Part shown: positions 20,550 to 54,380 of the stretch, piece after piece
Layout: each line of letters starts with the position of its first letter
How positions within the stretch are numbered: the stretch's first letter is position 1
Assembly: GCA_016214905.1 (NCBI GenBank)
Contig: JACRMQ010000009.1
Span: 1-64,000 of the forward strand
Origin: Ignavibacteriales bacterium
GTDB lineage: Bacteria > Bacteroidota > Ignavibacteria > UBA10030 > SZUA-254
Length of the DNA stretch: 64,000 bases
Reading direction: 5' to 3'
The notes under the pieces: generated by a model
Database searches by the model: none
The model's input: only the letters and a program-made list of their open reading frames with translations
Told to the model about the DNA's origin: nothing
Made by a program: the position numbers and the translations under genes

Positions 20550-21821
20550 TTACTCCTGAGGTGGGCGCTCAAACCAAACTTCGCCGCCGCTGAGCGAAAC
20601 TGAAAGCCGAAAGATATTATCTTTTTGCAACTGATTGTCTGTTGTGCCACGAAAGCTGTATCCGAGATTTACGTTCAAGCGTGTATCTGTAAACAAAGGC
20701 GCTCCAAATCCGATTGTAAATCCTAACTCATTTAACGGTTCATTCTTCAACTTATAATAAGAAGAATTGTAAAATATTCCTGCCCGGTATGCGACCCGCT
20801 GGAAATACGGAGATGAAAGATCGCGTTTGTTAAGAAACTCTAATCCTCCGGATATACGGAAACTATTTCTGATCTCTGATGAACTGTTTCTGAAGAGAGA
20901 ATATTTTTCCCAATTCTGATAGAAGAAATCACCCGCATAAAGTATCTTCTCTGTTGAATATGCGATGCCACCGCCGAACGATAAAGGTATTTCTAATTTC
21001 CCGGTAACCGCATCTGCGCTGTCTTTTAGAAATATCGTTGAGGTGTTGAATGAGTAAAATTTCTGTTCCTTCGCTTTCAATGAAGCGCCGGTTGAAATAA
21101 TTCCGCCGATGGAAAGCATTTGTGATTCGGAAAGGTTCAGAATTGATTTTAATCCCGTGTATACAAATCCTGCCGTTGCACCAAAACCATTCGCTTCGAC
21201 GGTTCGTGTAACTTCACTGCTTGTGTAGTTTGAACCGGTGAAAAGCTGCCTGGTCGTATAATTAAGCGTGCCTGAGTAATAATCAATTTTTAAACCGAAG
21301 TTTAATTCTGAACCGATTTTGACAGACGCGCCAAGATTTGTTTGAGATATTCCGCCATCACCTAGATATTGAATGTTATAATTGAGTGTGTCGAAAGTAT
21401 TCGGAGTGATTGTATTATAATTTATTCGACTGAACGGAATAAGCCCGAAGCCGAGTGTTACACCATTGCTTGGTAAGATGGGCAGAGTAACCATTAAACC
21501 GCTGAAGGTAACACCGCTGAAAAATCGTGATTCGTTATTGTCTTTAGCCGAAATTCCCTCATACGAAGCGCCGAACGAATATCGTGTGCGATTGATCTGC
21601 GTCCATGCCGCAGGATTCATCCTGTTGATCGAAGCGGAGGTCAAGACGGCGAATGACGCACCACCCATTCCATAAGCACGACTTGAAGGAAAATATTGCA
21701 ATTCTCCTATCCCATACCGTGAACTGCCGATACCGCCGTTACCGGCAAGTAAATATTGAAATCCGATAAGAATTGAAAACGAAACAATGAATATTCTCGA
21801 GTATAAAATTTTCCGTTTCAT
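20550..21821 (-). CDS. Outer-membrane beta-barrel protein (PorV/FadL-like fold)
   Basis: A 423-residue protein with an N-terminal signal peptide (about residues 1-26, ending LLAG). The start of the mature part, RAYGMGGASFAV followed by SINRMNPAAW, is the N-terminal pattern seen in FadL/OmpP1 and PorV-type barrels of this phylum. The rest is alternating amphipathic strands with Gly and aromatic residues, and the C-terminus has IFRLSVSLSGGEVWF. It probably sits in the outer membrane as a barrel of about 14 strands. Function is unknown: candidates are a hydrophobic-compound channel or a paralogue of the T9SS shuttle PorV. It lies 2 bases after the DNRLRE-like lipoprotein gene and upstream of rpiB, so an envelope pair is embedded in a metabolic operon. 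Confidence 0.75.
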   Translation of the reverse strand: MKRKILYSRIFIVSFSILIGFQYLLAGNGGIGSSRYGIGELQYFPSSRAYGMGGASFAVLTSASINRMNPAAWTQINRTRYSFGASYEGISAKDNNESRFFSGVTFSGLMVTLPILPSNGVTLGFGLIPFSRINYNTITPNTFDTLNYNIQYLGDGGISQTNLGASVKIGSELNFGLKIDYYSGTLNYTTRQLFTGSNYTSSEVTRTVEANGFGATAGFVYTGLKSILNLSESQMLSIGGIISTGASLKAKEQKFYSFNTSTIFLKDSADAVTGKLEIPLSFGGGIAYSTEKILYAGDFFYQNWEKYSLFRNSSSEIRNSFRISGGLEFLNKRDLSSPYFQRVAYRAGIFYNSSYYKLKNEPLNELGFTIGFGAPLFTDTRLNVNLGYSFRGTTDNQLQKDNIFRLSVSLSGGEVWFERPPQE

Positions 21822-24542: not shown

Positions 24543-24708
24543 TATTCAAGAAAATATTTCATCAACCGGAGCTTTCTTTATCGATTTTGTTAAAGGTTAA
24601 CATCAAAAAGTCCATAACTGCGTAAGCAGATATCATTTTTTTAATTTGTCATCAATATTGAAACCTTTAACATCATATATAGAGAGAGAAAATCGGTTAA
24701 TCCACCGA

Positions 24709-27700
24709 ATGTCTCACATAAGTCGATATTCGGTTTTTTGTTTTTATAACTTGCCGATCTTTAGAATATCCTTAGGAATTTTAATCATCCTGCTATCGTG
24801 TTCAACTATACTGGACGCTCAAGATGTGCGCGTAATTCAGTCTGATGCGGCAGGTTGCACTATTCAGTTCTCTCCAACTTATTCTTCACCGGAAACTCTT
24901 TTGGTCGATGGATTTCAAACAATCCGCTACAGTTTCGCGAAAGCAATCCATTATTCTGAAGCAAAATCCGGAGAACCGGAAATTCTGGTCCGCTCAACTC
25001 TTGTACAGATGCCCGGATTGTTAGGTAATACGGTTTCGATACTGCAAAGTGAATATGAAGAAATTCAGAATGTTTTAATTCCGCCGGTACCTTATTCTGC
25101 GCGGAATTCAGTTGGAATGACTGCTGAGTATCGTTTTGATCCGGACTTATACAATCGGAACGGATTCGCTCCAGTCAATTTAGCGTGGATCGATCATATC
25201 GGAGAAACGCGAGGAATGTTCTTGGGATCGTTGCGTATATCTCCAATCCAATTTGATCCTATTCGAAAAATATTACGTAGATATACACGATTGGTTATTC
25301 GAGTGAACTTTGGAATACCCGATCTATTACATCGTGCCGGTCAGCTCCGCAACGATCTGACTGGGAGCAATATCATAAATCAGTCCATAGTAGCGGTTAC
25401 CGATCGACTTACAACAAGCGGTAAAGTTAACAGTGTTCTTAGCGAAGGGACATGGTATCGGTTCGATGTAAGAGAAGACGGAATGTATAAGCTTACAGGT
25501 CAAATTTTACTCAATACCGGAGTACCTGCAAATACTGATCCGAACACAATCAAAGTGTACTCAAACGGCGGTATGAGAACACCGATCGATGTTAGTACCT
25601 ACTATCCGGATGATCTTGTTCAGAATGCTGTCGAGATTTTTGATGGTGGTACAGCCGGACATTTAGACCCGACCGATTATATAATATTTTACGGAAAAAG
25701 TTCGCGCGGATGGAAATATAATCCGTCATCTAAGATGTTTTCACATTATATCAATTATTTTGATGATCGGAGTTTTTATTGGATAACTTACGGTGGTGCT
25801 ATCTCGAAGCAAGTTGCGAAAGTTACGAATCCATTCCAGACTGCCGGATTTGTCCCCCAGACCGTTGAAGCTAAAATATTCCGTGAAGATGATAAATCGA
25901 ATTTATTCAGTTCAGGGATTGAGTGGATGGGAGAATCTTTTCTCGGAGGCGGGCAGATTGTGTATCGTCATCAGCTCCCCGGTTTGGATCTCACCCAACC
26001 GATGCGCTATAAATTTAATATCGGTGCGTTATCGGTAGCGTATTCATCATTTGAAATTTATGAGCATGATTCACTGCTGTCTACCTCATCTATTCGCGGT
26101 GATGGCGGCGACTATCCGAATTATATATCCGTCACAACGCCGTTTATCGGAAGGATTCCAAACTTTACAGATGGACAATCGGTATTGAGATTCCGGTATA
26201 ATAATTCTTCAGCGGGGCGCGGTTATATCGATTGGTATGAAATATTTTACCGGCAAGTGCTGAGGGCTCAGAATGATATATTTTCGTTTCATACGAATGA
26301 TACAAGTGCGATCGCTGAATACCGTGTCTCAGGTTTCGGCGGTGGCAACGTTTTTGTTTTTGATGTTTCAAAATATGACAGTCTTATTAAAATAGAGACC
26401 ACTCAAATTTCAATGGATACCTGCACATTCCAATTAGCATTGAATGCCGGAACAACGAGGGAAATATTTGCAATTGGTCAGAATGGTTTTAAAATACCAG
26501 GAACTATAACATCCGTTCAAAATCAGAATTTACACGGTGACGCTAACGAAGCAGAGTTCGTTATCGTAACACATAAAGATTTTATTTCTACTGCCGAAAG
26601 GTTAAAACAACATCGAGAGGGAAAAAGTAAAAATCCGATCTCGACTCAAGTTTTCGACATTGAAGAAATTTACAATGAATTTGGCGGAGGTTCAAGTTCT
26701 CCCGTCGCGGTCAGAAACTTTTTGAAATATGCTTACCTCAACTGGCAAAAACCTCCGAAATATCTATTGCTTCTGGGAGACGGAGATTTTGATTATAAAC
26801 GCACATTGGGATCAGATGAACCAAATTGGGTTCCACCGTGGGAATCTACTGAATCGTTTATTCAATTGTATTCGTATGCAAGCGATGATCTCTACGGTGT
26901 TTTTTTTACGGGAGAAAGAGTGAACCTTGGTATCGGCAGGTTACCGGTTCGATCCGTAACCGAAGCGAATAATGTTATTGATAAAATAATTGAGTATGAA
27001 ACTGAGTCTGTTCCGGATATCTGGAAACTCAGATTTACTTTTGTTGCAGATGACGGACCGGGTGTACCAGATAGAAATGATCGATCAATTCACATGGCGC
27101 ATGCTGAAGGTATCGCTGCCATGGTCCCGGCATTGTTTGAGAAAAGGAAGATATATATCTACGAAAATCCGACAGTATATACACCAGCCGGTAGGCGTAA
27201 ACCAACAGCGAATCTTGCAATTCGAAATGCAATAAACCAAGGGAGTCTTGTTTTAAATTTTGCCGGGCACGGAAATCCGCGCCTCTGGACACATGAAGCT
27301 ATTTTTGTTAAAGAAACCGATTTTCCCTTGCTGACGAATAAGGGAAAATATTTTTTCTTAGTTGCGGCAACATGCAATTATTCGAATTTCGATTTGCTGA
27401 CAGATCAATCAGGGGGTGAATTACTCATGTTAATGAAAAATGCAGGCGCAATTGGCGTTTTCTCGGCTCTTCGCCCGGTTTACGCAGATGCTAACTATGC
27501 ACTGAATGTTGATTTATATACGCATCTTATAGATACAACACGTAACGGTACTGTTAAAACAAAACGGTTGGGAGATATCATCTTCCAAACCAAGCAGCAA
27601 TTTCCTGATCTTGTGAATGATAGGAAATATTTTCTTATTGGAGATCCTTCTCTGGAGCTTCAGTTCCCGAAACTTGTCGCTTCTGTAGACAGCATAAACC

Positions 27701-28737
27701 ATATTGCCAACACTGAACCTGTCCGGCTTCAGGCGTTGAGCAGGACTGAGATAGATGCGACAATCCGGGATACAAGTTCAAATCCACTTCATCAAATTTC
27801 AGGTCGAGCACAACTCGCGGTTTACGATGCCGATAGGACTAATATAATCAATGCTCCCGAATTGGGGAACGGTTTTAAATATTCTACCTCAGGTTCTATA
27901 TTATTCCGTGGCCAGGATACAATCGTTGGTGGAAATATGAAAGGTGAGTTTATTGTTCCTAAAGATATTTCTTACTCGAATTCTCCGGGCAGGGTGGTTA
28001 TTTATTTTACAAGCGATTCTGCCGACGGCGCAGGATTCACGAAGAATATTCTTATGAATGGCACAGATACAAATGCCGTTGCGGATAATAAAGGTCCTCA
28101 GATTGCATTATATTTCGACCGACGCAGTTTCAAACCTGGCGATGTTGTGAGTTCATCACCGATGCTATTAGCCGACTTTGTTGATTCAAGCGGAATAAAT
28201 ACATCGGGTGGTGGAATTGGGCACCGACTTGAAGCATGGTTAGATAACAATTCAGAGAGCATCGATCTTTCTGAATATTACAAGAGTAAAGTCAATACCT
28301 ATCGGCTCGGGTCGGTGGAATATCCGCTCGGATCACTCAGTAATGGAACTCATACTCTCCGATTGCGTGCGTGGGATACATATAATAATTCTTCAACTGA
28401 AGAGACGATGTTCAACGTGGTATCTGGCGCGGGATTATCGCTCTCAAATATTCTTAATTATCCTAACCCTATATCGAACGCTACATATTTTACATTCGAG
28501 CATAATCAGGTAAACGCCATAGATGCTGAAGTAAAAATCTACACTGTTGCCGGAAGAATGATTCAATCGGTATCACGCAAAGGAATAACGGATCGCTTTG
28601 TGAAGATATATTGGGATGGATTTGATAAGGATGGAGATCGTTTGGCAAATGGGGTCTACTTATATAAAGTGACAGCTAAAACGTCAGACGGTCGATTTAA
28701 CTCAGAGAGTGTTGGAAAATTAACAATTTTACATTGA
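24709..28737 (+). CDS. porU: Type IX secretion sortase PorU (C25 gingipain-family peptidase)
   Basis: A protein of about 1340 residues. An upstream TTG at 24646 would add 21 residues, but the ATG at 24709 gives a cleaner signal peptide (hydrophobic ISLGILIILLSCS, then AQDVRV). The C25 catalytic dyad is visible in the last third: histidine in LNFAGHGNPRLW (codon at 27268) and cysteine in VAATCNYSNFD (codon at 27373). PorU removes the C-terminal signal of T9SS cargo at the cell surface and attaches the cargo to anionic lipopolysaccharide. The C-terminus has an immunoglobulin-like FlgD/T9SS-type domain (NYPNPISNATYFTF ... WDGFDKDGDRLANGVY). porV follows about 120 bases downstream, the usual pairing. 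The promoter at 24514 probably drives both. Confidence 0.9.
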   Translation: MSHISRYSVFCFYNLPIFRISLGILIILLSCSTILDAQDVRVIQSDAAGCTIQFSPTYSSPETLLVDGFQTIRYSFAKAIHYSEAKSGEPEILVRSTLVQMPGLLGNTVSILQSEYEEIQNVLIPPVPYSARNSVGMTAEYRFDPDLYNRNGFAPVNLAWIDHIGETRGMFLGSLRISPIQFDPIRKILRRYTRLVIRVNFGIPDLLHRAGQLRNDLTGSNIINQSIVAVTDRLTTSGKVNSVLSEGTWYRFDVREDGMYKLTGQILLNTGVPANTDPNTIKVYSNGGMRTPIDVSTYYPDDLVQNAVEIFDGGTAGHLDPTDYIIFYGKSSRGWKYNPSSKMFSHYINYFDDRSFYWITYGGAISKQVAKVTNPFQTAGFVPQTVEAKIFREDDKSNLFSSGIEWMGESFLGGGQIVYRHQLPGLDLTQPMRYKFNIGALSVAYSSFEIYEHDSLLSTSSIRGDGGDYPNYISVTTPFIGRIPNFTDGQSVLRFRYNNSSAGRGYIDWYEIFYRQVLRAQNDIFSFHTNDTSAIAEYRVSGFGGGNVFVFDVSKYDSLIKIETTQISMDTCTFQLALNAGTTREIFAIGQNGFKIPGTITSVQNQNLHGDANEAEFVIVTHKDFISTAERLKQHREGKSKNPISTQVFDIEEIYNEFGGGSSSPVAVRNFLKYAYLNWQKPPKYLLLLGDGDFDYKRTLGSDEPNWVPPWESTESFIQLYSYASDDLYGVFFTGERVNLGIGRLPVRSVTEANNVIDKIIEYETESVPDIWKLRFTFVADDGPGVPDRNDRSIHMAHAEGIAAMVPALFEKRKIYIYENPTVYTPAGRRKPTANLAIRNAINQGSLVLNFAGHGNPRLWTHEAIFVKETDFPLLTNKGKYFFLVAATCNYSNFDLLTDQSGGELLMLMKNAGAIGVFSALRPVYADANYALNVDLYTHLIDTTRNGTVKTKRLGDIIFQTKQQFPDLVNDRKYFLIGDPSLELQFPKLVASVDSINHIANTEPVRLQALSRTEIDATIRDTSSNPLHQISGRAQLAVYDADRTNIINAPELGNGFKYSTSGSILFRGQDTIVGGNMKGEFIVPKDISYSNSPGRVVIYFTSDSADGAGFTKNILMNGTDTNAVADNKGPQIALYFDRRSFKPGDVVSSSPMLLADFVDSSGINTSGGGIGHRLEAWLDNNSESIDLSEYYKSKVNTYRLGSVEYPLGSLSNGTHTLRLRAWDTYNNSSTEETMFNVVSGAGLSLSNILNYPNPISNATYFTFEHNQVNAIDAEVKIYTVAGRMIQSVSRKGITDRFVKIYWDGFDKDGDRLANGVYLYKVTAKTSDGRFNSESVGKLTILH

Positions 28738-30128: not shown

Positions 30129-33100
30129 GTGCAAAATAAAATCATCGCGATAATACTTATCTCGTTTTTCATAGGTCCATTATTATCATTCGGTCAAAAT
30201 AAATTTCAACCGGTTTTTGATCATTCGTTAACGGTTGAGCAAGATTATTTTTCTCAAACTGTCTCGAAACCAGAAACTTCGCTCAGAGTTCTTGCGGTTA
30301 TGGTTGATTTCCAAACAGACACTGATTCAAGAACCACAGGAGATGGTCATTTCGATCTTCACGACACGTCAAAAAAATTTCTTGACGCACCGCCTCATAA
30401 TTGTGCTTATTTTAAACAACATCTTGCATTCCTAAAAAATTATTATGAAAAAGTTTCAGACAATGTATTAAATGTCTCTTTTGAGTTGCTCGACAGCATT
30501 TACTGTCTACCTCATGAAATGAAATATTACAGTCCGTCAAAATCGAGCAAGAAAAATGTTGAGCTCGGTTATCTCGTCAAGGATACGTGGGAATTGGTAG
30601 ATTCGATCGCTGCAGCAACTCACCAGCATGTAGATTTTCAACAGTATAATACTTTCATAATTTTTCACGCGGGTGTTGGAAGAGATATCGATCTTGCATC
30701 ACTCTACGGTTACGATCCGACACCTTATGATATTCCTTCGTTGTACGTAAATCTTAAATCGATGCAGGTAATGTATAATGATGATAGTTTCGCAGGTATT
30801 GCGGTCGATAGCGGACGATTTCACATTACTAGTTCAATGATTTTACCGGAAACCGAAACGCGCGATCAGGTGCCATTCCCGTTAGGAATTAACGGTTTAG
30901 TTGTTGCATCTGTTGCTAGCCATCTTGAACTGCCGGATTTGTTCAATACGAAAAACGGCAGATCTGCAATCGGGCGCTTCGGATTGATGGACGGTCAGGC
31001 AATTTTCAGTTGGAACGGGGCGTTCCCGCCGGAACCTTCTGCCTGGGAAAAACAATATTTAGGTTGGATTAAACCAATTGAAATAAAAATTTCTGATTCG
31101 ACTTATATTTTACCTGCAAAAAGTTTAGCGGGAAGTTTAGATACAACATTGAAAGTCAGTATCAGCTCGAAAGAATATTTTTTAATTGAAAATAGAAACC
31201 GCGACGCAAATCGCGATGGTGCGATTGTTACAATGGTTGTTGGCAAAGACACGATTAAAAAACAATGGCTAAGAGATACGTCAAATTTTAATTCCATTGA
31301 CCAGGATTCTTTGTTCGGAACGATTATCGATGTCGATGAATTCGACTGGAGCTTGCCGGGTGGTGTTGACAGCCGGACAAAAACATTTTATGACGGTGGA
31401 ATTCTCATCTGGCACATTGATGAAAATATTATTGATCAGAATATTGCTACAAATACGATCAATGCCGATGTCAATAGGCGGGGAGTTAATTTGATGGAAG
31501 CCGACGGCTCGCCAGATATCGGTCAATCTTATGGTTTATTGGATCCGGGTTCAGGAAGTGAAAACGGCACCGCACTCGATTATTGGTTCTCAGGCAATTC
31601 AGCCCCGTTAAGAAAATACGACACGACAGGTTTTACACCAACATCTTATCCGAGCAGCAATAGTAACACCGGAGCTAACAGTCATATTTACATTAATCGA
31701 TTTTCGGAACGCGGTCCGAGCATGAGCGCAAGAATAAAAATTGGGGATGAGCAGATTTTACCGCTTCCCCAATTCCCGAAATTTGTTGGGAAAAATTATA
31801 AATGCAACTCAGTCACTGCACTGGGATATGAATCCGGAAATCAGGGATTGATAATTTCGGCAAATCCGCCTGATGACACTGTGGCCCATGAATATAATTC
31901 ACCTGCTATTTATGCATGGAAATATGACGGCTCGCCTTTAATAGCCGGTGTTGATTCTACATCTTTGTCGCCGTTACAATATCCGAGCGCGAAGTTTGTT
32001 GGAAAAACTGCGATAAAAGATTTTTCTGGCGATTTCATTCCTGATCTCGCTACTGGTGTTTGGGTTGATAATTCTCCGTTACAAAGTTATCTCCTCGGCT
32101 GGTCGATGGTTGATAGCCAACCCGATCAAAAATTAGACACATTATTTTCATTCGGTGTTGTGCACGCTATATCGACTTCAGCGGTAATTTCAGATTCATT
32201 CGTTGCTTATGGTACGAAAGGCGGATCAATATATTTTGTTAAGAGCAGCGGTAGTATTACAGGTGCAGTGAGTTTAAATGTTTTCGATTCAACCGAGATT
32301 GTTGGGTTAAATCTACTCACTAGCAATAGCTATATAGCTTTGTCAGCTATAGGGGATGTTCGGAAAATTTCTCCATACACTTCAGAAGTGTTGAGCCCCA
32401 TCAAACAATTTGGTCATACTTTTAATGCTCCAGCAGCATCGGCATTAATTTCCGGAAATTCATATTGGAAAGATCAGATAGGGCGTTGCATTGCCTTTGC
32501 ATCGAGCGATGGATACATTTATCTCGTTGATAGTTCATTAAATTTACTAAATGGATTTCCGATTGCAACCGGTAGCGAAATTAATAATTCTCCCGCAATC
32601 GGTGATGTTGACGGTGATAATATAAAAGATATTGTAGTTTTCGGCGGAAATAAAATATACGCCGTGAACGCGACGGGAGCGTACTTAGATAATTATCCGA
32701 TAACAGTTCCAAGTCAAAAACCAATTCTTACATCTCCCAGCATTGCGGATGTTAATGGAGACGGACTTGTTGATATTGTTGCGGTTACACAGGAAGGAAT
32801 TGTTGTAGCATACAATTCACAAGGAAGGATGGTAAACGGTTTCCCGCTCCTCTCCGGACCAAACAGCGGATCTACACCTGCAGTTTTTTATATGAATAGT
32901 GTCTGCCTCAGTTGTGTTGATATAGGATTGGCTGTCGGCTCGGATGACGGTTTTGTTTATGCGTGGAAAACCGGTGGAATAGTTACAGGTCTTACCGCTC
33001 CTCCAATTATGCCTTGGCCCCAATATCTTCACGATGCACAGAATACCGGAATGAGCGCCGAAGTGAGTGCTCCAATTTCCAAAAGCGATAATTATTTGCC

Positions 33101-33383
33101 TGCAGAGCGAGCATACAATTGGCCCAATCCCGTAACAGCAGCCGATAATTTTATAACGCATTTCCGCTACTATGTAAAAGAAAACTCGACCATCCGTATA
33201 AAAATTATAGACCAGGCAGGTGATTTAGTTACACAATTTGAAAAAACCGGTGTTGGTGGAATCGATAATGAGTTTGAATGGGATGCATCCGCTTTACAAA
33301 GCGGAGTATATTATGTGCACGTTGAAGCAAACGGATCATCAGGCAGCGGTCATTCAATTTTTAAAATGGCAATAGTCCGGTAA
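30129..33383 (+). CDS. Secreted M6-protease-like protein with degenerate zinc site and T9SS sorting domain
   Basis: A 1084-residue exported protein. A signal peptide (IIAIILISFFIGPLLSFG) is followed by an immune-inhibitor-A-like M6 region (about 55-400, LRVLAVMVDFQTD, FIIFHAGVGRDID, FGLMDGQAIFSWNG). Where active M6 enzymes have H-E-x-x-H-x-x-G-L-P-D, this protein reads A260-S-V-A-S264-H-L-E267-L-P-D270: only the LPD end remains, so proteolysis is unlikely. The second half contains FG-GAP/VCBS-like propeller blades (AIGDVDGDNIKDIVV, SIADVNGDGLVDIVA). The C-terminus is a type A T9SS sorting-like domain (YNWPNPVTAADNF ... LQSGVYYVHV). The start is GTG at 30129. It is the first gene of a four-gene group with gaps of 0-18 bases, directly after porU-porV, so it is a likely cargo or accessory factor of the secretion system. 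Confidence 0.8.
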   Translation: MQNKIIAIILISFFIGPLLSFGQNKFQPVFDHSLTVEQDYFSQTVSKPETSLRVLAVMVDFQTDTDSRTTGDGHFDLHDTSKKFLDAPPHNCAYFKQHLAFLKNYYEKVSDNVLNVSFELLDSIYCLPHEMKYYSPSKSSKKNVELGYLVKDTWELVDSIAAATHQHVDFQQYNTFIIFHAGVGRDIDLASLYGYDPTPYDIPSLYVNLKSMQVMYNDDSFAGIAVDSGRFHITSSMILPETETRDQVPFPLGINGLVVASVASHLELPDLFNTKNGRSAIGRFGLMDGQAIFSWNGAFPPEPSAWEKQYLGWIKPIEIKISDSTYILPAKSLAGSLDTTLKVSISSKEYFLIENRNRDANRDGAIVTMVVGKDTIKKQWLRDTSNFNSIDQDSLFGTIIDVDEFDWSLPGGVDSRTKTFYDGGILIWHIDENIIDQNIATNTINADVNRRGVNLMEADGSPDIGQSYGLLDPGSGSENGTALDYWFSGNSAPLRKYDTTGFTPTSYPSSNSNTGANSHIYINRFSERGPSMSARIKIGDEQILPLPQFPKFVGKNYKCNSVTALGYESGNQGLIISANPPDDTVAHEYNSPAIYAWKYDGSPLIAGVDSTSLSPLQYPSAKFVGKTAIKDFSGDFIPDLATGVWVDNSPLQSYLLGWSMVDSQPDQKLDTLFSFGVVHAISTSAVISDSFVAYGTKGGSIYFVKSSGSITGAVSLNVFDSTEIVGLNLLTSNSYIALSAIGDVRKISPYTSEVLSPIKQFGHTFNAPAASALISGNSYWKDQIGRCIAFASSDGYIYLVDSSLNLLNGFPIATGSEINNSPAIGDVDGDNIKDIVVFGGNKIYAVNATGAYLDNYPITVPSQKPILTSPSIADVNGDGLVDIVAVTQEGIVVAYNSQGRMVNGFPLLSGPNSGSTPAVFYMNSVCLSCVDIGLAVGSDDGFVYAWKTGGIVTGLTAPPIMPWPQYLHDAQNTGMSAEVSAPISKSDNYLPAERAYNWPNPVTAADNFITHFRYYVKENSTIRIKIIDQAGDLVTQFEKTGVGGIDNEFEWDASALQSGVYYVHVEANGSSGSGHSIFKMAIVR

Positions 33384-33389
33384 CATCTT

Positions 33390-34049
33390 GTGCGGTCGAT
33401 TATTTTTATTTTACTATCATTATTTCTCGTCTCTTGCCGCGAAATCGAATCACCTGCCGATCTCGGAAGCATCAACGGTTATGAAGTCAGAGGCAGGGTT
33501 TCAACCGCGAACGGGATACCGATCGATAGCGTTCAAGTCAGTTTATATTACTATTACGATTATGTCGGTAACAAACAGCTTGATACCGTGGAGATAATAA
33601 TAACAGACACGATGCAAGTTCTTGATGTTACCGTTTTTACGAATAAATTCAAAGAGGTGCGAAAAATATTTTCAGGAAGATGGGGAATACTCGGTCCCGT
33701 TCATCACATTTACTGGAACGGTCGCGATGATAACAACTTGCCCGCACCGAGCGGTTTATATTACATGGTCTTCACTCTCGATAGTACCGTTGTAAAACAA
33801 AATAAAATGATTATCGACGGAAATGTTACAACTGTTACAGATTATTACGGCAGGTTCGCTTTACCGGACGAAACTCTTCCTGTCGGCGTTCTTTTCGATG
33901 CCTATAACGACGATGGAAGTTTTCACGGGGTTTTAAAAATTGAACCGAAGATCGCGCTCGTATTGAATAAACGGCAAAGCGTTGCAACGTATGAATCGAT
34001 TTACCTGACGAACAATACAATCACATCACTCGCTCTGACATTAGAATAA
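33390..34049 (+). CDS. Lipoprotein with FlgD-like fold, unknown function
   Basis: A 219-residue protein beginning at a GTG 6 bases after the pseudoprotease gene. The signal peptide ends in the lipobox LVSC (Cys16). The next segment, YEVRGRVSTANGIPIDSVQVSLYYYY (a carboxypeptidase-regulatory-like beta sandwich), is followed by a FlgD-type module: HHIYWNGRDDN, then LPAPSGLYYMVFTLD. The FlgD/T9SS-type fold suggests a structural or docking role at the cell surface. It directly abuts the next gene (stop at 34049, ATG at 34056 after a GTG-like 34050 option), implying coupled expression. No enzyme motif was seen. Confidence 0.6.
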   Translation: MRSIIFILLSLFLVSCREIESPADLGSINGYEVRGRVSTANGIPIDSVQVSLYYYYDYVGNKQLDTVEIIITDTMQVLDVTVFTNKFKEVRKIFSGRWGILGPVHHIYWNGRDDNNLPAPSGLYYMVFTLDSTVVKQNKMIIDGNVTTVTDYYGRFALPDETLPVGVLFDAYNDDGSFHGVLKIEPKIALVLNKRQSVATYESIYLTNNTITSLALTLE

Positions 34050-37000
34050 TTGGCTATGAAATATTATATACTCTCCATTTTTATTTTCATTCTATCTTTA
34101 ACTCTTTCAGCTCAAGAAGATTTTTATCACCCCGAGCTTGAATGGCGGACGATTCAAACCGAACATTTTAATATCCACTACCATCCCGGGGTTGAAAGAA
34201 CCGCGCGTGTTGTGGCAAAGATTGCGGAAGATATTTACGAACCCGTGACGTCCTTCTATCAATACAAACCCGACAGTAAAATAAGTTTTATAATGAAGGA
34301 TTACGATGATTTTTCAAACGGCGCGACTTATTTTTTCGATAACAAGATAGAAATATGGGCATCTGCGCTCGATTTCGATCTTCGAGGCTCACATAATTGG
34401 TTGAGAAATGTTATCACGCACGAATTTACGCACATGATTCAAATTCAGACCACTTTAAAATTCGGACGTAAAGTTCCGGCTTTTTATTTGCAATGGCTGC
34501 AGTACGAATCGGAGCGGAGGACCGATGTTTTGTATGGTTATCCGAACGGTATTGTTTCTTATCCCGTATCCGGATTTGTTGTGCCGGCATGGTTCGCTGA
34601 AGGTGTAGCTCAATATAACCGACGGGAATTTGCGTACGACTGGTGGGATGCGCACAGGGATATGATACTTCGAATGTACATCCTCGACGGCAACATGCTG
34701 TCGTGGAATCAAATGGCGACTTTCGGTAAAACAAGTCTTGGAAATGAATCGGCTTACAATTCAGGATTCGCGCTTGTGCGTTATATCGCCGAACGTTATG
34801 GCGAAGATAAACTTCGGGAAATATCTTATAATCTTCGTTCACTCACTGCTTTCTCCATAGATGGAGCGATTGAAAAAGCGATCGGTAAAGGCGGTAAAGA
34901 ATTGTACAACGAGTGGATTAATTACCTGAGAAACGATTACGGTGAAAGAATTTCTGGCGTGAAAGCAAATCTTATTTCGGGAGAGATAATCGGAAGCGTT
35001 GGTTTTGGAAATTTTTATCCGCACTTCTCACCTGATGGTAAATCGATTGCGTATATCAGTAATAAAGAATCGGATTATTTCGGTACTTCATCTCTGTATC
35101 TCTACGATATTAATTCAAAAAAAGAAAAACTTCTAAAAGCGGGAGTAAGATCTAATTTTTCCTGGAGTCGGGATGGTAAAAAAATCTACTACTCAAAACT
35201 CACGCGCGATAACCCGCATTGGTCGAATATTTTTGATATCTTTTGCTTCGACCTTGAAAGTGAAGAAGATACGCGGATAACAACAGGGTTACGCGCGGAC
35301 GCACCTTCGGTATCGCCGGATGGAAGTAAAATTGTTTATGTTTCCGGGGCAGATGGAACTTTAAATATTTCCACGATGGATTTAGACGGAAATAATGTTA
35401 AGCAGCTTACATCTTATAAAAATGGTGAGCAGATTTTTAATCCGTCGTGGTCGCCTGATGGTTTAAAAATTCTTTTCGATTACTCTATAAAAGACGGTAG
35501 AGATTTGGCATTAATACCGACAACAGGGGGGCAAATCGAATTTGTTTTCTCAACCCCCGACGACGAACGAAACGGTACATTCACTTCTGATGGGAAAAGT
35601 ATTATATTTTCATCCGATAAAACCGGTATCTTCAATATTTATGAATACGATATTGAGACTAAGCAGGTGGTTCAAAAATCAAATGTATTGGGAGGAGCGT
35701 TCATGCCGAACGCAACCGCAGATGGACAGATCGCTTTCGCTTCTTACACTTCCACAGGATATAAAATCGCATACATGGAGACGATGCAATGTCTGGGTAA
35801 CGTACCATCTTATGTTCGTTCGCAAACATTTCAATCACACACCACCGATACTTCTTTAAGCAGTTCACGCAATTGGAAATCACTCCGGTTTTATGATGAC
35901 ACACAACTCCCCGAATTTAAAGAAGGATCGTATAAGGCATCATCGTCAGGGTTGGCGTTTATTCCATTTCTGCGTGTCGATAATTATAATCCTAAAAATA
36001 AGGGAATCGACATGCTCAAGTTGGGATTGTACATGTACTCTTACGATGTTCTCGACAGATATGGATTTTTTGCCGGCGGCGCGATCAATAAAAAAGGTGA
36101 ACGCGATCTATTCTTGACATTCGATTATCGCGGAAAAGTGCCGGGGCTATTTCAACTTGGAGCGGAACCGACTGTCGCGTTTGAAGTGTATAATATAACG
36201 CGGAAGACAGATGTCTCAATCGGATTCCCGTTAGATACATTATCGGTTGGGGTAACATACAATCTGCTTGAGTTCGATGCCGTGTTCAGGCATAAATTAT
36301 TTTTAGAAAATCTTGATCTTGAACTTCGATATGCTCACAGCAGGTATAGTGCTACTATCGGTTCTTTCATTCTTCCCGATCCATCGCCGGAAATCGGCAA
36401 TCCATTGATTCCCGCATTCAGCGATTTATACCTCATCGGTAATAACATTTCTGCCAACTTTGAATTTCGAGCTTTAAAACCATCACGAACAACCGAGATA
36501 AATCCGATTGGCAGGAAAATCCGATTGAAGTATGAATTCGAAACAAATAAATATAATCCTACCGGTGAATATGATTATAAAGATGGAGCATTAATTGCCA
36601 GATATCAGCGAGTAAGATTTCATCGACTAGAAACACGGTGGACAGAATACACGAAACTTCCCGGATGGAAGCATACGCTATCGGCACAGTTGCGTGGCGG
36701 TACCATATTTGGTCCACCTCAGGATAATTTCTTCAATTATTATATCGGCGGTTTGGCAGGTATGAAGGGATATACTTTTTACTCGCTTGGCGGTAATGAA
36801 TACGCGATGGCAAATGCCACTTATCGATTTCCGATCTTTGAAGATATTGACACAAGAATTTTACATATGATCTTCAACCAGCTTTACGGTGCGGTTTACG
36901 GAGATATCGGTAATGCCTGGACGGGTGGCGGATTGACGGGTAAAAAATTTAAAAAAGATGCCGGTGTTGAATTACGACTCGAAGCATTTTCGTATTATGC

Positions 37001-37142
37001 TTTCCCGACAAGAATATTTCTGAGTGCAACTTACGGTTTCGATAAATTTAATTATCAGATGGAATCGAGCAAGAAAATAGTAACATACGGAAAAGAGTGG
37101 AGTTTTCACTTCGGCGTACTTTTCGGATTCGACTTCGATTAA
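34050..37142 (+). CDS. Zinc peptidase - PD40 propeller - Omp85-like barrel fusion
   Basis: This encodes 1030 residues with a signal peptide (YYILSIFIFILSLTLSAQ). Residues 25-300 are a gluzincin-type peptidase (peptidase MA-like) with H124-E-F-T-H128 and the third ligand E184 in PAWFAEGVAQY. Residues about 310-600 hold at least four PD40/TolB-like blades (YPHFSPDGKSIAYIS, PSVSPDGSKIVYVS, NPSWSPDGLKILFD, TSDGKSIIFSS). Residues about 620-1030 are beta-rich and end like an Omp85/BamA surface-antigen barrel, including GGLAGMKGYTFYSLGGNEYA, which matches the R/K-G-Y loop motif of that family. The result would be an outer-membrane barrel presenting or holding a peptidase and propeller. All zinc residues are intact, unlike the neighbouring M6-like protein. 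Translation starts at the codon touching the lipoprotein stop; an internal ATG at 34056 is also possible. Confidence 0.8.
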   Translation: MAMKYYILSIFIFILSLTLSAQEDFYHPELEWRTIQTEHFNIHYHPGVERTARVVAKIAEDIYEPVTSFYQYKPDSKISFIMKDYDDFSNGATYFFDNKIEIWASALDFDLRGSHNWLRNVITHEFTHMIQIQTTLKFGRKVPAFYLQWLQYESERRTDVLYGYPNGIVSYPVSGFVVPAWFAEGVAQYNRREFAYDWWDAHRDMILRMYILDGNMLSWNQMATFGKTSLGNESAYNSGFALVRYIAERYGEDKLREISYNLRSLTAFSIDGAIEKAIGKGGKELYNEWINYLRNDYGERISGVKANLISGEIIGSVGFGNFYPHFSPDGKSIAYISNKESDYFGTSSLYLYDINSKKEKLLKAGVRSNFSWSRDGKKIYYSKLTRDNPHWSNIFDIFCFDLESEEDTRITTGLRADAPSVSPDGSKIVYVSGADGTLNISTMDLDGNNVKQLTSYKNGEQIFNPSWSPDGLKILFDYSIKDGRDLALIPTTGGQIEFVFSTPDDERNGTFTSDGKSIIFSSDKTGIFNIYEYDIETKQVVQKSNVLGGAFMPNATADGQIAFASYTSTGYKIAYMETMQCLGNVPSYVRSQTFQSHTTDTSLSSSRNWKSLRFYDDTQLPEFKEGSYKASSSGLAFIPFLRVDNYNPKNKGIDMLKLGLYMYSYDVLDRYGFFAGGAINKKGERDLFLTFDYRGKVPGLFQLGAEPTVAFEVYNITRKTDVSIGFPLDTLSVGVTYNLLEFDAVFRHKLFLENLDLELRYAHSRYSATIGSFILPDPSPEIGNPLIPAFSDLYLIGNNISANFEFRALKPSRTTEINPIGRKIRLKYEFETNKYNPTGEYDYKDGALIARYQRVRFHRLETRWTEYTKLPGWKHTLSAQLRGGTIFGPPQDNFFNYYIGGLAGMKGYTFYSLGGNEYAMANATYRFPIFEDIDTRILHMIFNQLYGAVYGDIGNAWTGGGLTGKKFKKDAGVELRLEAFSYYAFPTRIFLSATYGFDKFNYQMESSKKIVTYGKEWSFHFGVLFGFDFD

Positions 37143-37160: not shown

Positions 37161-38060
37161 ATGCGGAATATCGCTTTCATAATATTCAACATCATCTTCA
37201 TATCAATCGCTGTTTCACAGCAAAGCGATTCATTTTATGTAACCGGAAACCGGCAAGTTGATTTTTGGGGCACTCCCGGCAAGTTTTTAACTCTTAATCA
37301 AGATAAAATTGCCTTGCAGCAAGATAATTTTTCAAACAGGGAAGAAATATCTCCATGGCTTGCTGCCGCGATGTCGTTGCTGGTACCGGGTGCGGGTGAG
37401 ATTTACGCAGAAAGTTATACAAAAGGTGGAATATTCCTCGGTGTCGAAGTTGCATCATGGATTGTTGCCGGTGTTTATAACAGCAAAGGAAATAAACAAA
37501 CCGAGTGGTTTAAAAACTACGCTAACGAGCATTACAGTCCCGTTCGCTACGCTGAATGGGTTTGGAGAAACATCGGTTCATTAGCGCCCGGGTTGGATAC
37601 ATCACAATATCATTTGTATTATCGTCCGCCAACATCTTCCGAGAAGCCGCCGTTCGATTGTTTGAGTTGGATGGAGTTAAACAGTTTGGAAGGAGAGATC
37701 GCAAGCTTTACGCATCGATTACCTTTGTACGGTGAGCAGCAATATTTCGAATTGATCGGGAAGTATAAACAATTCAGCAAAGGGTGGGACACTGAAGATC
37801 CGTACGAACCCGACCACCTTACCCCGAGCGATCAGTTTTATTATTATGGCGTGGAATTCAATAAAGCCGATAAGTATTATAAAATTTCCGATATGTTCAT
37901 ATCGGTAATAATCGTCAATCATATCGTAAGCGCATTCGATGCTTATCTTACAGCATCGCATTATAACAATGTTTTACATGCAGATGTGCAATTAAAAATG
38001 CAGCCGACTATTTATGGCGTGGTTCCAACAGCCGAAGCTCATTTAAAATTTACTTTTTAA
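37161..38060 (+). CDS. DUF5683-like membrane-associated protein
   Basis: A 299-residue protein with a signal peptide (FIIFNIIFISIAVSQQ). The segment ISPWLAAAMSLLVPGAGEIY and the following TKGGIFLGVEVASWIVAGV are the P-G-A-G-x-x-Y and K-G hallmark of DUF5683-type proteins, giving two hydrophobic helices. A third hydrophobic stretch (DMFISVIIVNHIVSAFDAYLTA) lies near the C-terminus. The rest is polar with a Tyr-rich central part. Function unknown. It is the last gene of the group that starts at 30129, 18 bases after the fusion gene, and ends at a symmetrical hairpin shared with lptG (38069-38104). Confidence 0.65.
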   Translation: MRNIAFIIFNIIFISIAVSQQSDSFYVTGNRQVDFWGTPGKFLTLNQDKIALQQDNFSNREEISPWLAAAMSLLVPGAGEIYAESYTKGGIFLGVEVASWIVAGVYNSKGNKQTEWFKNYANEHYSPVRYAEWVWRNIGSLAPGLDTSQYHLYYRPPTSSEKPPFDCLSWMELNSLEGEIASFTHRLPLYGEQQYFELIGKYKQFSKGWDTEDPYEPDHLTPSDQFYYYGVEFNKADKYYKISDMFISVIIVNHIVSAFDAYLTASHYNNVLHADVQLKMQPTIYGVVPTAEAHLKFTF

Positions 38061-38068
38061 ATTTGGAA

Positions 38069-38104
38069 TAATTTCGATTAACTGGTGATAGTCAATCGAA
38101 ATTA
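38069..38104. terminator. Bidirectional terminator between convergent genes
   Basis: Perfect 11-bp arms, TAATTTCGATT (38069-38079) and AATCGAAATTA (38094-38104), surround a 14-base loop. The AT-rich arms supply short T runs on both strands. It follows the plus-strand gene by 8 bases and covers the lptG stop codon (38102-38104 on the minus strand). Confidence 0.65.
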
Positions 38105-39187
38105 CTTGGGTACTTTGAAAAGGACAAATAATCCGGCGAGCAAGAAAACAATATTAGCAAGCCATGCCGTCAACAGAGGATGCAAATCTCCGTTGTATCC
38201 GAATGCCTGACTTACCTGCAGGAAAATCATATACATAAATGAAATTCCGATTGCGATTCCGAACTCAACTCCAAGTCCGCTTCTGCGTTTGACGGAGGAG
38301 AATGGAATTCCGAACAGAACAACAATAACGCTTGCGAAAGGGAATGCGATTTTACCGTAATAATCAACCATCCAGCGGGAAACCTCGTGACCTGCGCGTT
38401 GTTGATTTGTGATAAAATGCTTAAGATCGGGGTAATTCATTTCTTCCGGCTTTTCTTGTTTTTTCTTGATATCATCGGGGGTGAAATTTAGTACACCGAT
38501 ATCGAATATTTTGAACTGAAAAAGATTTTCAGTCGCGTTGTAGAATTTACGTTCCGAGCCATTTACAAGATGCCATCGTTTTGTGCTATCGTTCCAGCAC
38601 ATTTCATCCGCGTCGTACCGTACACGCAGCATAGTGGGATCCACCGGATCAAAATCCTGAATGCTGACACGCATTGCAACATTTCGAGTGTCATCAAACA
38701 TCCCGATCGATAATATCCTGTCTTTTGAATCTTGAATATATATATTGCTTTTTGATACGAAGCGTATATCTTTTTGAAAATATCTTCTCCCTAATTCAAC
38801 TTTTTTCTTATTAGCGTAAGGAACAATCCAACCGTTAAAATAAATAGAAACACCGCTGATTAATACAGCGAAAACCAGCATAGGTGCCATGAATCGAAAA
38901 AGAGATACTCCTCCCGATTTTAAAGCTGTTAATTCATTATAAGTCGACATCCGGCCCGTTGTGAAAAGCGAACTAAGCAGTGTGGCAACAGGTGTCATCA
39001 GTTTAATGATCTCAGGTACAAAAAATAAATAGTATTGAACGACCATCCAAACAGAAGCGTTAGCATCTATGAAATCATCGAGGTTATCCATCAAATTAAC
39101 TGCGACAAAGATAACGGTAATTGCCAACAGTGAGAATGCCCAGGTGACAATAAATTGGTGCAGTACGTATCGATCAAGTTTTGTCAT
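38102..39187 (-). CDS. lptG: Lipopolysaccharide export permease LptG (YjgP/YjgQ family)
   Basis: A 361-residue inner-membrane permease. The start, LDRYVLHQFIVTWAFSLLAI, and the three N-terminal helices are followed by a periplasmic beta-jellyroll domain (about 130-270) and three C-terminal helices, the standard LptF/LptG design. With LptF and the ATPase LptB it extracts lipopolysaccharide from the inner membrane. It overlaps lptF by four bases (39184-39187), so the two are translationally coupled. LptB is not encoded nearby. It was assigned G rather than F by position and by its shorter periplasmic domain; the two are paralogues. Confidence 0.88.
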   Translation of the reverse strand: MTKLDRYVLHQFIVTWAFSLLAITVIFVAVNLMDNLDDFIDANASVWMVVQYYLFFVPEIIKLMTPVATLLSSLFTTGRMSTYNELTALKSGGVSLFRFMAPMLVFAVLISGVSIYFNGWIVPYANKKKVELGRRYFQKDIRFVSKSNIYIQDSKDRILSIGMFDDTRNVAMRVSIQDFDPVDPTMLRVRYDADEMCWNDSTKRWHLVNGSERKFYNATENLFQFKIFDIGVLNFTPDDIKKKQEKPEEMNYPDLKHFITNQQRAGHEVSRWMVDYYGKIAFPFASVIVVLFGIPFSSVKRRSGLGVEFGIAIGISFMYMIFLQVSQAFGYNGDLHPLLTAWLANIVFLLAGLFVLFKVPK

Positions 39188-40575
39188 GTTCTATCGAAAG
39201 ATTCCGATTCGTCAATTTGCGAAGTGCGTAAAAATTTTGGAGAATATTTCCGCAGCGCCGCCCAATTAATCGCGGGTGTTTCACGTCCGGTACGAATTGT
39301 GAGATAAACACCAAGTATGAAGAGGATAATGTTTGCCATCCACATTCCTAACCAAGGACTGAGCAGGTTGCGGTCTGCTAATTTTTCGCCGCCAATAAGC
39401 ATCGCCCAGTATATGATAAAAAATCCCAGACTGAACGTTGCTGCAACGCCAAACGTACCTTTCCGCGCGATTATACCGAGCGGTGCACCTATTAGAACGA
39501 ACACTATGCATGCTGCCGGGATAGAATATTTTTTATATATCTCGACGAGATATTCATCGATTCTCCGGTTGTTATATTCGATGAGAGATAACTGATTCGA
39601 GATTTGCATTCTAACATTACGCACTTTGTTGAGTGCGAGTGTAAGAGCGCGTTGATGTTGTTGATCGGGTGTCACAGACGTTGATAACTTTCGTGAATCC
39701 AATAATGAGGATGTGGGATGATTATCGCCGATCATCGTTTCGCGTTCAAGATATATATTCGCGTTGGTAAGACTATCGACAATCTTTTTCATTTCATCGG
39801 AGCTCATTTCTCGATCACTTCTATCGAACGCCCCCATACTCGATCTTTCAAACTCGAATCCTTCGGCATCCATGATTATGCGGTGTCTGTCGAAGCGCAT
39901 TCGCTGGTATGGTGACTTATCACCAGATCCCAGTTGATTAATTTCGCCATCGTATAAATCCATGACAAGTTTTCTGTAATCTGGTGTAAACGAAACTTTA
40001 CCTTTCTCCGCCGTCACGACAACATTTGTTGAAGGATCTGTGTAATCGTAAATCGTGATGCCTTCCAGATTGTTCGATTGTTCGAAAGTTTTTCGTGCAA
40101 GAATGCTGTACCCAGGGACATCCTGTGAAAATAATCCTGATTGAATTGTGAGAGTCGGTTTTGTCCTGCGGATATCGATCATCAAAATCTTGAAGCGATG
40201 ATTGGCTTCGGGAAGAATTTTATTGTTGAATTCTATCAGAAATATAGTTAACAATAAAGATCCGATAAGTACCGGCGCGATCATTTTATACAAGCTCATT
40301 CCGCTTGCCTTCATGGCGGTAATCTCGTTCTGGGAAGACAATTTTCCGAAAGCCATCAAAGATGCAACCAGCACAGCCATTGGTGCGGCAAGAACAACCA
40401 TCCACGATAGACTCAGCATCAACAGTTCTCCGATTACAACCGGACTTAATCCTTTGCCGACTAATTGTTCAATTGCACGCATCAAAAATTGAAGCAAAAA
40501 GATAAACATTAAAGTCAGGAAGGCGAAAATGAACGGTCCGAGATGTGCTTTCAATATGTGATAGTATAGTTTCAT
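39184..40575 (-). CDS. lptF: Lipopolysaccharide export permease LptF (YjgP/YjgQ family)
   Basis: A 463-residue permease of the LptF type with LKAHLGPFIFAFLTLMF at the start, the family segment MLSLSWMVVLAAPMAVLVASLMAFGKLSSQNEITAMKAS (here shown in parts, APMAVLVASLMAFG and NEITAMKASGMSLY) and a large periplasmic insertion (about 130-345). The ATG at 40575 has GAGG just upstream; a TTG at 40617 would add 14 residues of doubtful character. The periplasmic domain is about 100 residues longer than in LptG, with a polar, charged loop (RSDREMSSDEMKKIVDS). It is the first gene of lptF-lptG and is divergent from sprA. Confidence 0.88.
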   Translation of the reverse strand: MKLYYHILKAHLGPFIFAFLTLMFIFLLQFLMRAIEQLVGKGLSPVVIGELLMLSLSWMVVLAAPMAVLVASLMAFGKLSSQNEITAMKASGMSLYKMIAPVLIGSLLLTIFLIEFNNKILPEANHRFKILMIDIRRTKPTLTIQSGLFSQDVPGYSILARKTFEQSNNLEGITIYDYTDPSTNVVVTAEKGKVSFTPDYRKLVMDLYDGEINQLGSGDKSPYQRMRFDRHRIIMDAEGFEFERSSMGAFDRSDREMSSDEMKKIVDSLTNANIYLERETMIGDNHPTSSLLDSRKLSTSVTPDQQHQRALTLALNKVRNVRMQISNQLSLIEYNNRRIDEYLVEIYKKYSIPAACIVFVLIGAPLGIIARKGTFGVAATFSLGFFIIYWAMLIGGEKLADRNLLSPWLGMWMANIILFILGVYLTIRTGRETPAINWAALRKYSPKFLRTSQIDESESFDRT

Positions 40576-40915
40576 ATCCTCGATTCTTAATATAGTGGCT
40601 GGCAATAGATTTTCCAAAGGGAAGATCTATTGATATTTTTCAAAGCCTGTAGAATCAGGCAAAATAGTGCAATTGGTTGAAAAACATCTTTCCAATCCTG
40701 ATCCGTATTGAGATATCTTCTAAAAATCGGTTATTATGATTTATTTCGGGCATTTATCAAATTATCCTTGCAATTAAGTCGACTTTTTCCTACATTTTCT
40801 ATGTAATTATTTATCATTATTGGTTTTAATCGCTTACGAATGCGAAAGGAGTCGTTGGTATCGGTTCTTGGTAACAGGTTAATAGTAAGATAGGTGTTGT
40901 TATAGAAATTATTTT
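40576..40915. other. Divergent promoter region between lptF and sprA
   Basis: About 340 bases separate the two divergent starts. The only promoter-like pair I found for sprA is TTGCAA (40768-40773), 17 bases, TACATT (40791-40796), each box four of six to consensus. The stretch is AT-rich and holds no long open frame, repeat or strong hairpin. A minus-strand promoter for lptF could not be picked out by eye. Confidence in the boxes is low. Confidence 0.35.
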
Positions 40916-54366: not shown

Positions 54367-54380
54367 TTCTTTTGAGTCGA

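Follow-up and report, generated by a model that had tools for sequence, protein, structure and literature searches.

What would a zinc peptidase do that is built into an outer-membrane barrel and encoded among the genes of a type IX secretion system (T9SS)? The question is raised by a stretch of 64,000 nucleotides from an Ignavibacteriales bacterium (assembly GCA_016214905.1, contig JACRMQ010000009.1, positions 1 to 64,000; hereafter the window), in which the open reading frame (ORF) 34050..37142 on the forward strand encodes a protein that we call the barrel peptidase. Close by, at 30129..33383, lies the gene of an M6-like protein, here termed M6i. The answer that we favour, with a confidence somewhat above even, is that the barrel peptidase is a periplasm-facing outer-membrane zinc metallopeptidase of the WD40-Omp85 type, which works together with M6i, a pseudoprotease exported by the T9SS.

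The ORF is open throughout and counts 1030 amino acids from the TTG at 34050, the ATG at 34056 being the likelier start. Residues are counted here from position 34059, and the following features were recognized:

34056..34115, + strand: Sec-type signal peptide, MKYYILSIFIFILSLTLSAQ, judged by eye, without a lipobox cysteine
34122..34970, + strand: gluzincin (Peptidase_MA_2) domain, residues 22-304, from Pfam and a model of the domain
34419..34433, + strand: HEFTH zinc site, residues 121-125, from the alignment
34470..34574, + strand: clade-specific predicted beta-hairpin between the zinc-ligand motifs, residues 138-172, from spacing, conservation and model
34590..34604, + strand: WFAEG, motif of the third zinc ligand, residues 178-182, from the alignment
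34971..35798, + strand: TolB-like beta-propeller, residues 305-580, from PD40, NCBIfam and fold match
35934..37139, + strand: BamA-type 16-strand Omp85 barrel, residues 626-1027, from predicted structure and a weak profile match
36759..36773, + strand: GMKGY, residues 901-905, counterpart of the Omp85 L6 motif

The zinc site is intact and strongly conserved. Peptidase_MA_2 matched the window copy above the Pfam cut-off (E 5.9e-9) and, among 24 aligned relatives with 32-68% identity to the window copy (chosen as near full-length, barrel-only kin not being looked for), it was found in 24/24 and PD40 in 23/24; H121, E122, H125, W178, E181 and G182 are invariant columns of this alignment. We collected 153 homologue ORFs, 137 of them distinct, as some genomes were present in two collections: in 136 of the 137, HExxH is followed by WxxEG at a spacing of exactly 52 residues, and the remaining ORF ends at a contig end. 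Modelled alone with AlphaFold2 (AF2), the domain reached a predicted local distance difference test (pLDDT) of 82.1 and a predicted template modelling score (pTM) of 0.79. This isolated model superposed on lugdulysin, an M30 gluzincin (Z 17.4, root-mean-square deviation (rmsd) 3.7 Å over 233 residues), and on M1 aminopeptidases (Z 13.5-15.5). Both gluzincin features, HExxH with a downstream glutamate ligand and an M1/M30-like fold, are thus present, the former in the sequence and the latter in the predicted fold, and the domain would be proteolytically active.

The propeller was readily identified in the window copy, by PD40 repeats (Pfam E 2.9e-22), by the NCBIfam TolB propeller (E 1.6e-43, under the equivalog cut-off) and by superposition on TolB (3iax, Z 27.6, rmsd 2.4 Å over 242 residues). 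The full-length AF2 model (mean pLDDT 85.4, pTM 0.84) has 16 strands of at least nine residues each spanning residues 633-1022; the signal-peptide region is poorly modelled (pLDDT < 50 at residues 1-4 and 8-21), and the two AF2 models rest on alignments of 24 and 18 rows. The predicted barrel superposed on BamA chains with Z 21-23.5, best on 8xnb (Z 23.5, rmsd 3.5 Å over 314 residues), then on BamA of F. johnsoniae (9n2d, Z 22.7) and of B. thetaiotaomicron (9hiv, Z 21.2). A Foldseek search was also run on the full-length model. A viral fold search gave no useful match, and in sequence searches of the PDB with the barrel peptidase propellers were the sole matches. Since a per-protein scan for Pfam Omp85 at E 0.01 matched none of the 24 members, the barrel assignment rests on the predicted structure, on orthologues of six of 20 genomes in which PF01103 (Omp85) reached its cut-off (one of the six with neighbouring matches added), and on a weak match of our barrel profile to a local BamA profile of 19 ORFs, four of them shorter than their listed frames (Prob 54, E 1.3e-4; PorV control, Prob 0.2). 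Further weak matches were those of the barrel profile to a BamA-like set (Prob 15.6, E 0.0017) and of the NCBIfam BamA model to the window copy (E 0.0016). All 24 aligned members keep G901 and Y905, and sequences such as MRGY, MRSY and ARGY stand at this place in others; we take GMKGY to correspond to the L6 motif (V/I)RG(F/Y) of Omp85 proteins.

A preliminary description of the locus had already read signal peptide, intact HEFTH...E site, PD40 blades, Omp85-type barrel and GMKGY in this one ORF, and Pfam, alignment and AF2 model bear it out; the predicted last third is indeed a BamA-like barrel of 16 strands, and the peptidase part is kept in all 24 of the near full-length relatives aligned. 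Searching part by part with hidden Markov models gave a divided result: the peptidase and PD40 models scored as described, while PF01103 stayed under its cut-off in the window copy.

How might these parts be arranged across the membrane? No POTRA domain was found in the Pfam or NCBIfam scans of the barrel peptidase, and residues 22-580 are taken up by peptidase and propeller. In several superpositions the N-terminal part stands at the position of BamA POTRA5; 8bnz and 7nri pair model residues 25-26 with chain residue 367, which, from the domain limits, we take to lie within POTRA5. On the model, the N-terminal domains most likely occupy the POTRA-equivalent place at the periplasmic mouth of the barrel. 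The opposite arrangement would be a self-export device of type Vd-like character, in which the barrel moves its own peptidase-propeller part, or the products of neighbouring genes, to the surface; an autonomous secretion device had been proposed in the preliminary description. An enzyme fused to an Omp85 barrel, a conserved site and a partner, M6i, that is expected on the surface would all suit such a device. We consider it quite improbable, because nothing was found that points to export of the peptidase, because several superpositions set N-terminal residues at the POTRA5 place, because the neighbours PorU and M6i already bear T9SS sorting domains, and because the enzyme domain of PlpD stays periplasmic (PMC11116518).

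The case for a partnership comes from M6i.

30129..33383, + strand: M6i, NF052323 'T9SS-dependent M6-like inactivated metalloprotease', 831 bits

The protein has a signal-peptide-like start (judged by eye); besides its M6-like region it carries FG-GAP repeats and, with TIGR04183 at 26.6 bits (cut-off 23), a T9SS sorting domain of type A. HExxHxxGxxD was absent anywhere in 76/76 M6i relatives, one of which has an unrelated HExxH elsewhere. As this motif is missing throughout, and the site of the barrel peptidase is retained in 136/136 ORFs that cover it, an inactive secreted protease accompanies an intact membrane protease.

We looked for both proteins in 296 genomes of the window's phylum with a completeness of at least 90%. 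Orthologues of the barrel peptidase were present in 114 (E <= 6.1e-94; next genome 5.4e-41), and M6i was present in the identical set of 114 (NF052323, E <= 3.8e-107; next 2.4e-13). Weak M6i matches in 17 further genomes (E 2.4e-13 to 1e-10) were excluded as distant; they probably reflect the shared sorting tail, and that of G203 may be due to a retained M6i stub. In the family designated f32 (82 genomes with a completeness of at least 80%, 47 of them additional to the main set), two separate searches found both proteins in 69 genomes, neither in 13 and no discordant case. Taken jointly, 343 distinct genomes, related to one another, hold both proteins (152) or neither (191), and either alone in none. 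In 101/114 genomes the two genes stand side by side on one strand, and in 13/114 they are apart; in G063, a single-contig genome, 862 kb lie between them. The preliminary description had noted a lost-activity M6-like protein beside the barrel peptidase; the link between the two proved very tight.

Losses of the pair are also informative. In four genomes of genus g117 it is missing between PorV and the right-hand neighbours, with the flanking genes kept; two of these genomes also lack DUF5683, and one keeps an M6i stub of ~65 codons. A contig gap was ruled out as the cause of the absence in G288, where the contig runs on past PorV with other genes. Losses of this kind can take both genes at once, and genomes with unlinked genes therefore weigh more. 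The same genomes bear on the possibility that the barrel peptidase is first of all an assembly factor, whose barrel would insert or mature M6i, PorV or another client as BamA does, its peptidase clearing stalled clients: BamA, BamB and BepA in one chain. The BamA-type barrel, the TolB/BamB-like propeller and the gene position by porV speak for it, as do the likeness to a BamA-BamB fusion drawn by Heinz and Lithgow (PMC4104836) and the action of the protease BepA at the β-barrel assembly machinery (BAM; PMC13067283). However, no POTRA domain came up in the scans, M6i resembles soluble cargo rather than a barrel, and PorV and SprA are present in 4/4 tested g117 genomes without the barrel peptidase, which is thus not needed for their existence. 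We hold such a role to be unlikely, though worth keeping in mind.

The relation to the T9SS proved to be one of context rather than necessity. The T9SS sortase PorU was above cut-off in 196/296 genomes, 105 of which also have the barrel peptidase (Fisher p 5e-15, uncorrected for kinship); 91/196 PorU genomes lack the barrel peptidase and 9/114 barrel peptidase genomes, all of family f32, lack PorU, so that the barrel peptidase is independent of PorU. In these nine, the order PorV-M6i-barrel peptidase-DUF5683 is preserved. Because it is absent from 91/196 PorU genomes, the barrel peptidase is not a core part of the T9SS, and we rejected it as a core component although it is encoded with porU and porV.

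A second T9SS role to be weighed was that of a stand-in sortase, which would remove the C-terminal domain (CTD) of secreted cargo. In its favour, the barrel peptidase lies in the porU-porV block, with PorU on the same strand 4.2-6.0 kb upstream in 80/87 testable genomes (the count covers 87 genomes, the position of PorU being unlisted for 18 of the 105 that have both), and 9 of the 13 f32 genomes without a sortase that were tested have it. The other four of the 13 retain SprA, PorV and CTD cargo without it; it coexists with PorU in 105 genomes and is missing from 91/196, and it is predicted to be periplasmic. A sortase substitute was rejected on these PorU counts and on the g117 losses, and little probability, if any, is left for this reading or for a T9SS component of another kind.

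The sortase-less T9SS gene sets are an observation in their own right. They belong to G117, G136, G161, G172, G203, G223, G254, G277, G285, G297, G312, G320 and G332, all of family f32. SprA and PorV are above cut-off in 13/13, each genome has 5-32 type A CTD matches, and neither PorU at E 1e-10 nor Peptidase_C25 at E 0.001 was found in any of the 13; both are present in the same-family controls G215 and G144. Such gene sets offer a natural test of PorU's necessity.

The gene neighbourhood in the window is as follows:

24646..28737, + strand: PorU, T9SS sortase, NF033707 961 bits
28799..30028, + strand: PorV, T9SS outer-membrane shuttle protein, NF033710 272.7 bits, cut-off 250
33390..34049, + strand: small lipoprotein-like gene, no family above cut-off; weak FlgD_ig, DUF4369 and CarboxypepD_reg
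37161..38060, + strand: DUF5683 protein, the usual downstream neighbour, PF18935 5.8e-9

The order runs PorU, PorV, M6i, small lipoprotein-like gene, barrel peptidase, DUF5683, two genes on the minus strand, SprA (40916) and PorX (47996). To follow this order elsewhere, we used named loci, the 80 best among 546 confirmed matches from a contig scan; they come from Ignavibacteria (for example Melioribacter and Ignavibacterium), Candidatus Chrysopegis and unclassified Bacteroidetes, and are labelled Ignavibacteria, Bacteroidetes/Chlorobi or unclassified. By these labels, the phylum of the genomes counted above would be Bacteroidota as GTDB defines it. Where the contig leaves room, M6i lies upstream in 63/66, PorV in 57/60 and PorU in 51/54, and DUF5683 lies downstream in 58/66; the small lipoprotein-like gene stands between M6i and the barrel peptidase in part of the loci only. 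Thus the conserved gene order with PorU and PorV, a survey of which the preliminary description had called for, is real. Its placement of the gene directly behind porU-porV was right as to the block and inexact as to the position, as M6i and the small lipoprotein-like gene intervene.

Three further observations concern the flanks. The two adjacent minus-strand genes at 38102-40617, between DUF5683 and SprA, are presumably an LptF/LptG permease pair; relatives of both occur in 14 of the 80 named loci, with SprA beyond in 9 of the 14. Upstream of the T9SS block, 20550-21821 (minus strand) encodes a protein of the BamG family, which in Bacteroidota supplies a subunit of BAM (NF053685, 252.3 bits, cut-off 250). 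At 52495-57380 (plus strand), an OmpA-like protein precedes a TPR protein whose match to PorW/SprE stays below the threshold (NF052312, 111.7 bits, cut-off 250); these are possibly divergent parts of the T9SS peptidoglycan link.

The window's genome encodes two more proteins of the same architecture (1064 and 966 amino acids) with intact zinc sites. Two such paralogue groups of peptidase-propeller-Omp85 proteins were seen in the order (L002 on contig C3 and L003 on contig C7 of the window's genome, G000, and L205-L220). HExxH...WxxEG is kept in 18/18 paralogues read, all from the window's order, at a spacing of 24 or 26 residues, as against 52 in the orthologues. The extra ~26 residues are modelled as a beta-hairpin (strands 141-148 and 164-171), which none of the 18 paralogues has. 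The hairpin stretch, residues 138-172, has 11/35 invariant columns, compared with 52/280 in the whole peptidase and 31/402 in the barrel.

Paralogues of this kind form two clades outside the T9SS cluster that share the architecture and keep their zinc sites, and they could argue that the barrel peptidase is a general quality-control protease of the outer membrane, and that its link to M6i and the T9SS is a matter of operon inheritance only, the two genes being adjacent in 101/114 genomes. Such a view does not readily account for the exceptionless co-occurrence with M6i, which is kept in up to 13/114 genomes with the genes apart and in 9/114 without PorU, nor for the absence of the hairpin from the paralogues read. 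It thus appears improbable to us, if less so than self-export.

Where would the hairpin lie? Of the 32 rows of Omp85 superpositions, 13 set in at residues 138-143, which pair with the beginning of the barrel of BamA. This suggests the seam of the barrel as a possible place for the hairpin, a lead rather than a result; 8 other rows begin at residues 25-96 and 2 at 389. A more elaborate scheme can be built on this lead, a trans-outer-membrane pair, in which the T9SS would bring the inactive M6 protease to the surface side of the BamA-like barrel and the hairpin would relay a signal through the seam, switching the peptidase on the periplasmic side. We give it a minor share of our confidence, comparable to that of the assembly role. 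If true, events at the cell surface would be sensed by way of an Omp85 barrel and proteolysis regulated accordingly.

The simpler partnership that we favour would work as follows. The BamA-type barrel would anchor the barrel peptidase in the outer membrane, with the TolB-like propeller and the gluzincin domain at its periplasmic mouth. The T9SS (SprA/PorV) would deliver M6i, the secreted M6-type pseudoprotease, which may bind the barrel complex, either on the surface or while crossing the periplasm, and there present or regulate substrates; the barrel peptidase would cut them on the periplasmic side. The hairpin may touch the barrel seam and couple the state of the barrel to the active site. 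The job would likely be the maturation, or the quality control and clearance, of complexes of outer-membrane or T9SS cargo.

Several points weigh against this account. As to topology, the type A CTD of M6i leads one to expect this protein on the surface, whereas the peptidase would be in the periplasm, so that contact would have to go by way of the barrel or occur while M6i crosses the periplasm. The placement of the N-terminal domains depends on a single model, a prediction that came with no inter-domain error values, and in two superpositions, 8q0g and 7tsz, the POTRA5 place (chain residue 370) is occupied by the propeller, at residue 389, rather than by the peptidase. The seam reading of the hairpin is based solely on first-aligned-residue values, and in 9 of the 32 Omp85 superpositions the alignment sets in instead within the first strands of the barrel itself (629-659). 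As to co-occurrence, joint losses may be single deletions, since the genes are mostly adjacent and the g117 losses look like such events; three of the 13 genomes with the genes apart (G157, G071 and G322) may be contig breaks; and the 343 genomes, being related, are not independent tests.

With these reservations, a partnership of the barrel peptidase with M6i would be of some consequence. Assembly and secretion are the roles for which Omp85 proteins are chiefly known, and a conserved protease branch, anchored in the membrane and tied to a dead protease that the T9SS delivers, would link secretion to proteolysis at the outer membrane. The putative partner M6i and the catalytic site open WD40-Omp85 function to direct tests.

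Among known systems, the closest by architecture are the WD40-Omp85 proteins, defined in 2014 by Heinz and Lithgow, who likened them to a BamA-BamB fusion and could offer at most a guess at their function (PMC4104836). The preliminary description's inference of an undescribed system was therefore too strong, the more so as the M6-like partner is already modelled in NCBIfam. Like these proteins, the barrel peptidase has a POTRA-less Omp85 barrel after a propeller closest to that of TolB; unlike them as described, it has a peptidase, M6i and the hairpin, the likeness being one of architecture. The main text of that paper nowhere uses the term 'peptidase', and its WD40-Omp85 section gives the group no peptidase part, partner or gene neighbourhood; a separate 'Metallo' group rests there on PF00149, which is termed a metalloprotease domain and differs from Peptidase_MA_2 (PMC4104836). 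Besides this paper, searches of the open-access literature listed nothing that seemed to bear on the peptidase-WD40-Omp85 architecture or the M6i pair.

PlpD, a patatin-like Omp85 protein of type Vd, likewise has an enzyme domain fused to an Omp85 barrel, but the enzyme is a patatin-like lipase, a POTRA domain is present and there is no propeller; the enzyme-derived lid moves between the barrels of a dimer, and a T9SS or pseudoprotease partner was not found in the available text (PMC11116518). BamA-BamP of Flavobacterium johnsoniae shares the BamA-type barrel, but consists of separate subunits with POTRA domains and without a peptidase; a loop of BamP enters the BamA barrel and exits at the seam (PMC12611786). 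The PlpD lid and the BamP loop are thus models for an insert, such as the hairpin, reaching an Omp85 barrel. BepA, an M48 protease that acts at BAM (PMC13067283), is likewise a zinc peptidase, working in the periplasm at an Omp85 machine, but it is unfused and of a different peptidase family. Gluzincins of M30, M1 and M61 (lugdulysin, aminopeptidase N) share the N-terminal fold and HExxH...E with the barrel peptidase, which differs in that a propeller and an outer-membrane barrel follow in the same chain and a hairpin stands between the ligands. TolB shares the propeller fold; the barrel peptidase, in contrast, carries a peptidase N-terminally and lies in a T9SS rather than a Tol-Pal gene context. 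All together, the propeller-barrel fusion was already known, and it is the partnership with M6i that looks new.

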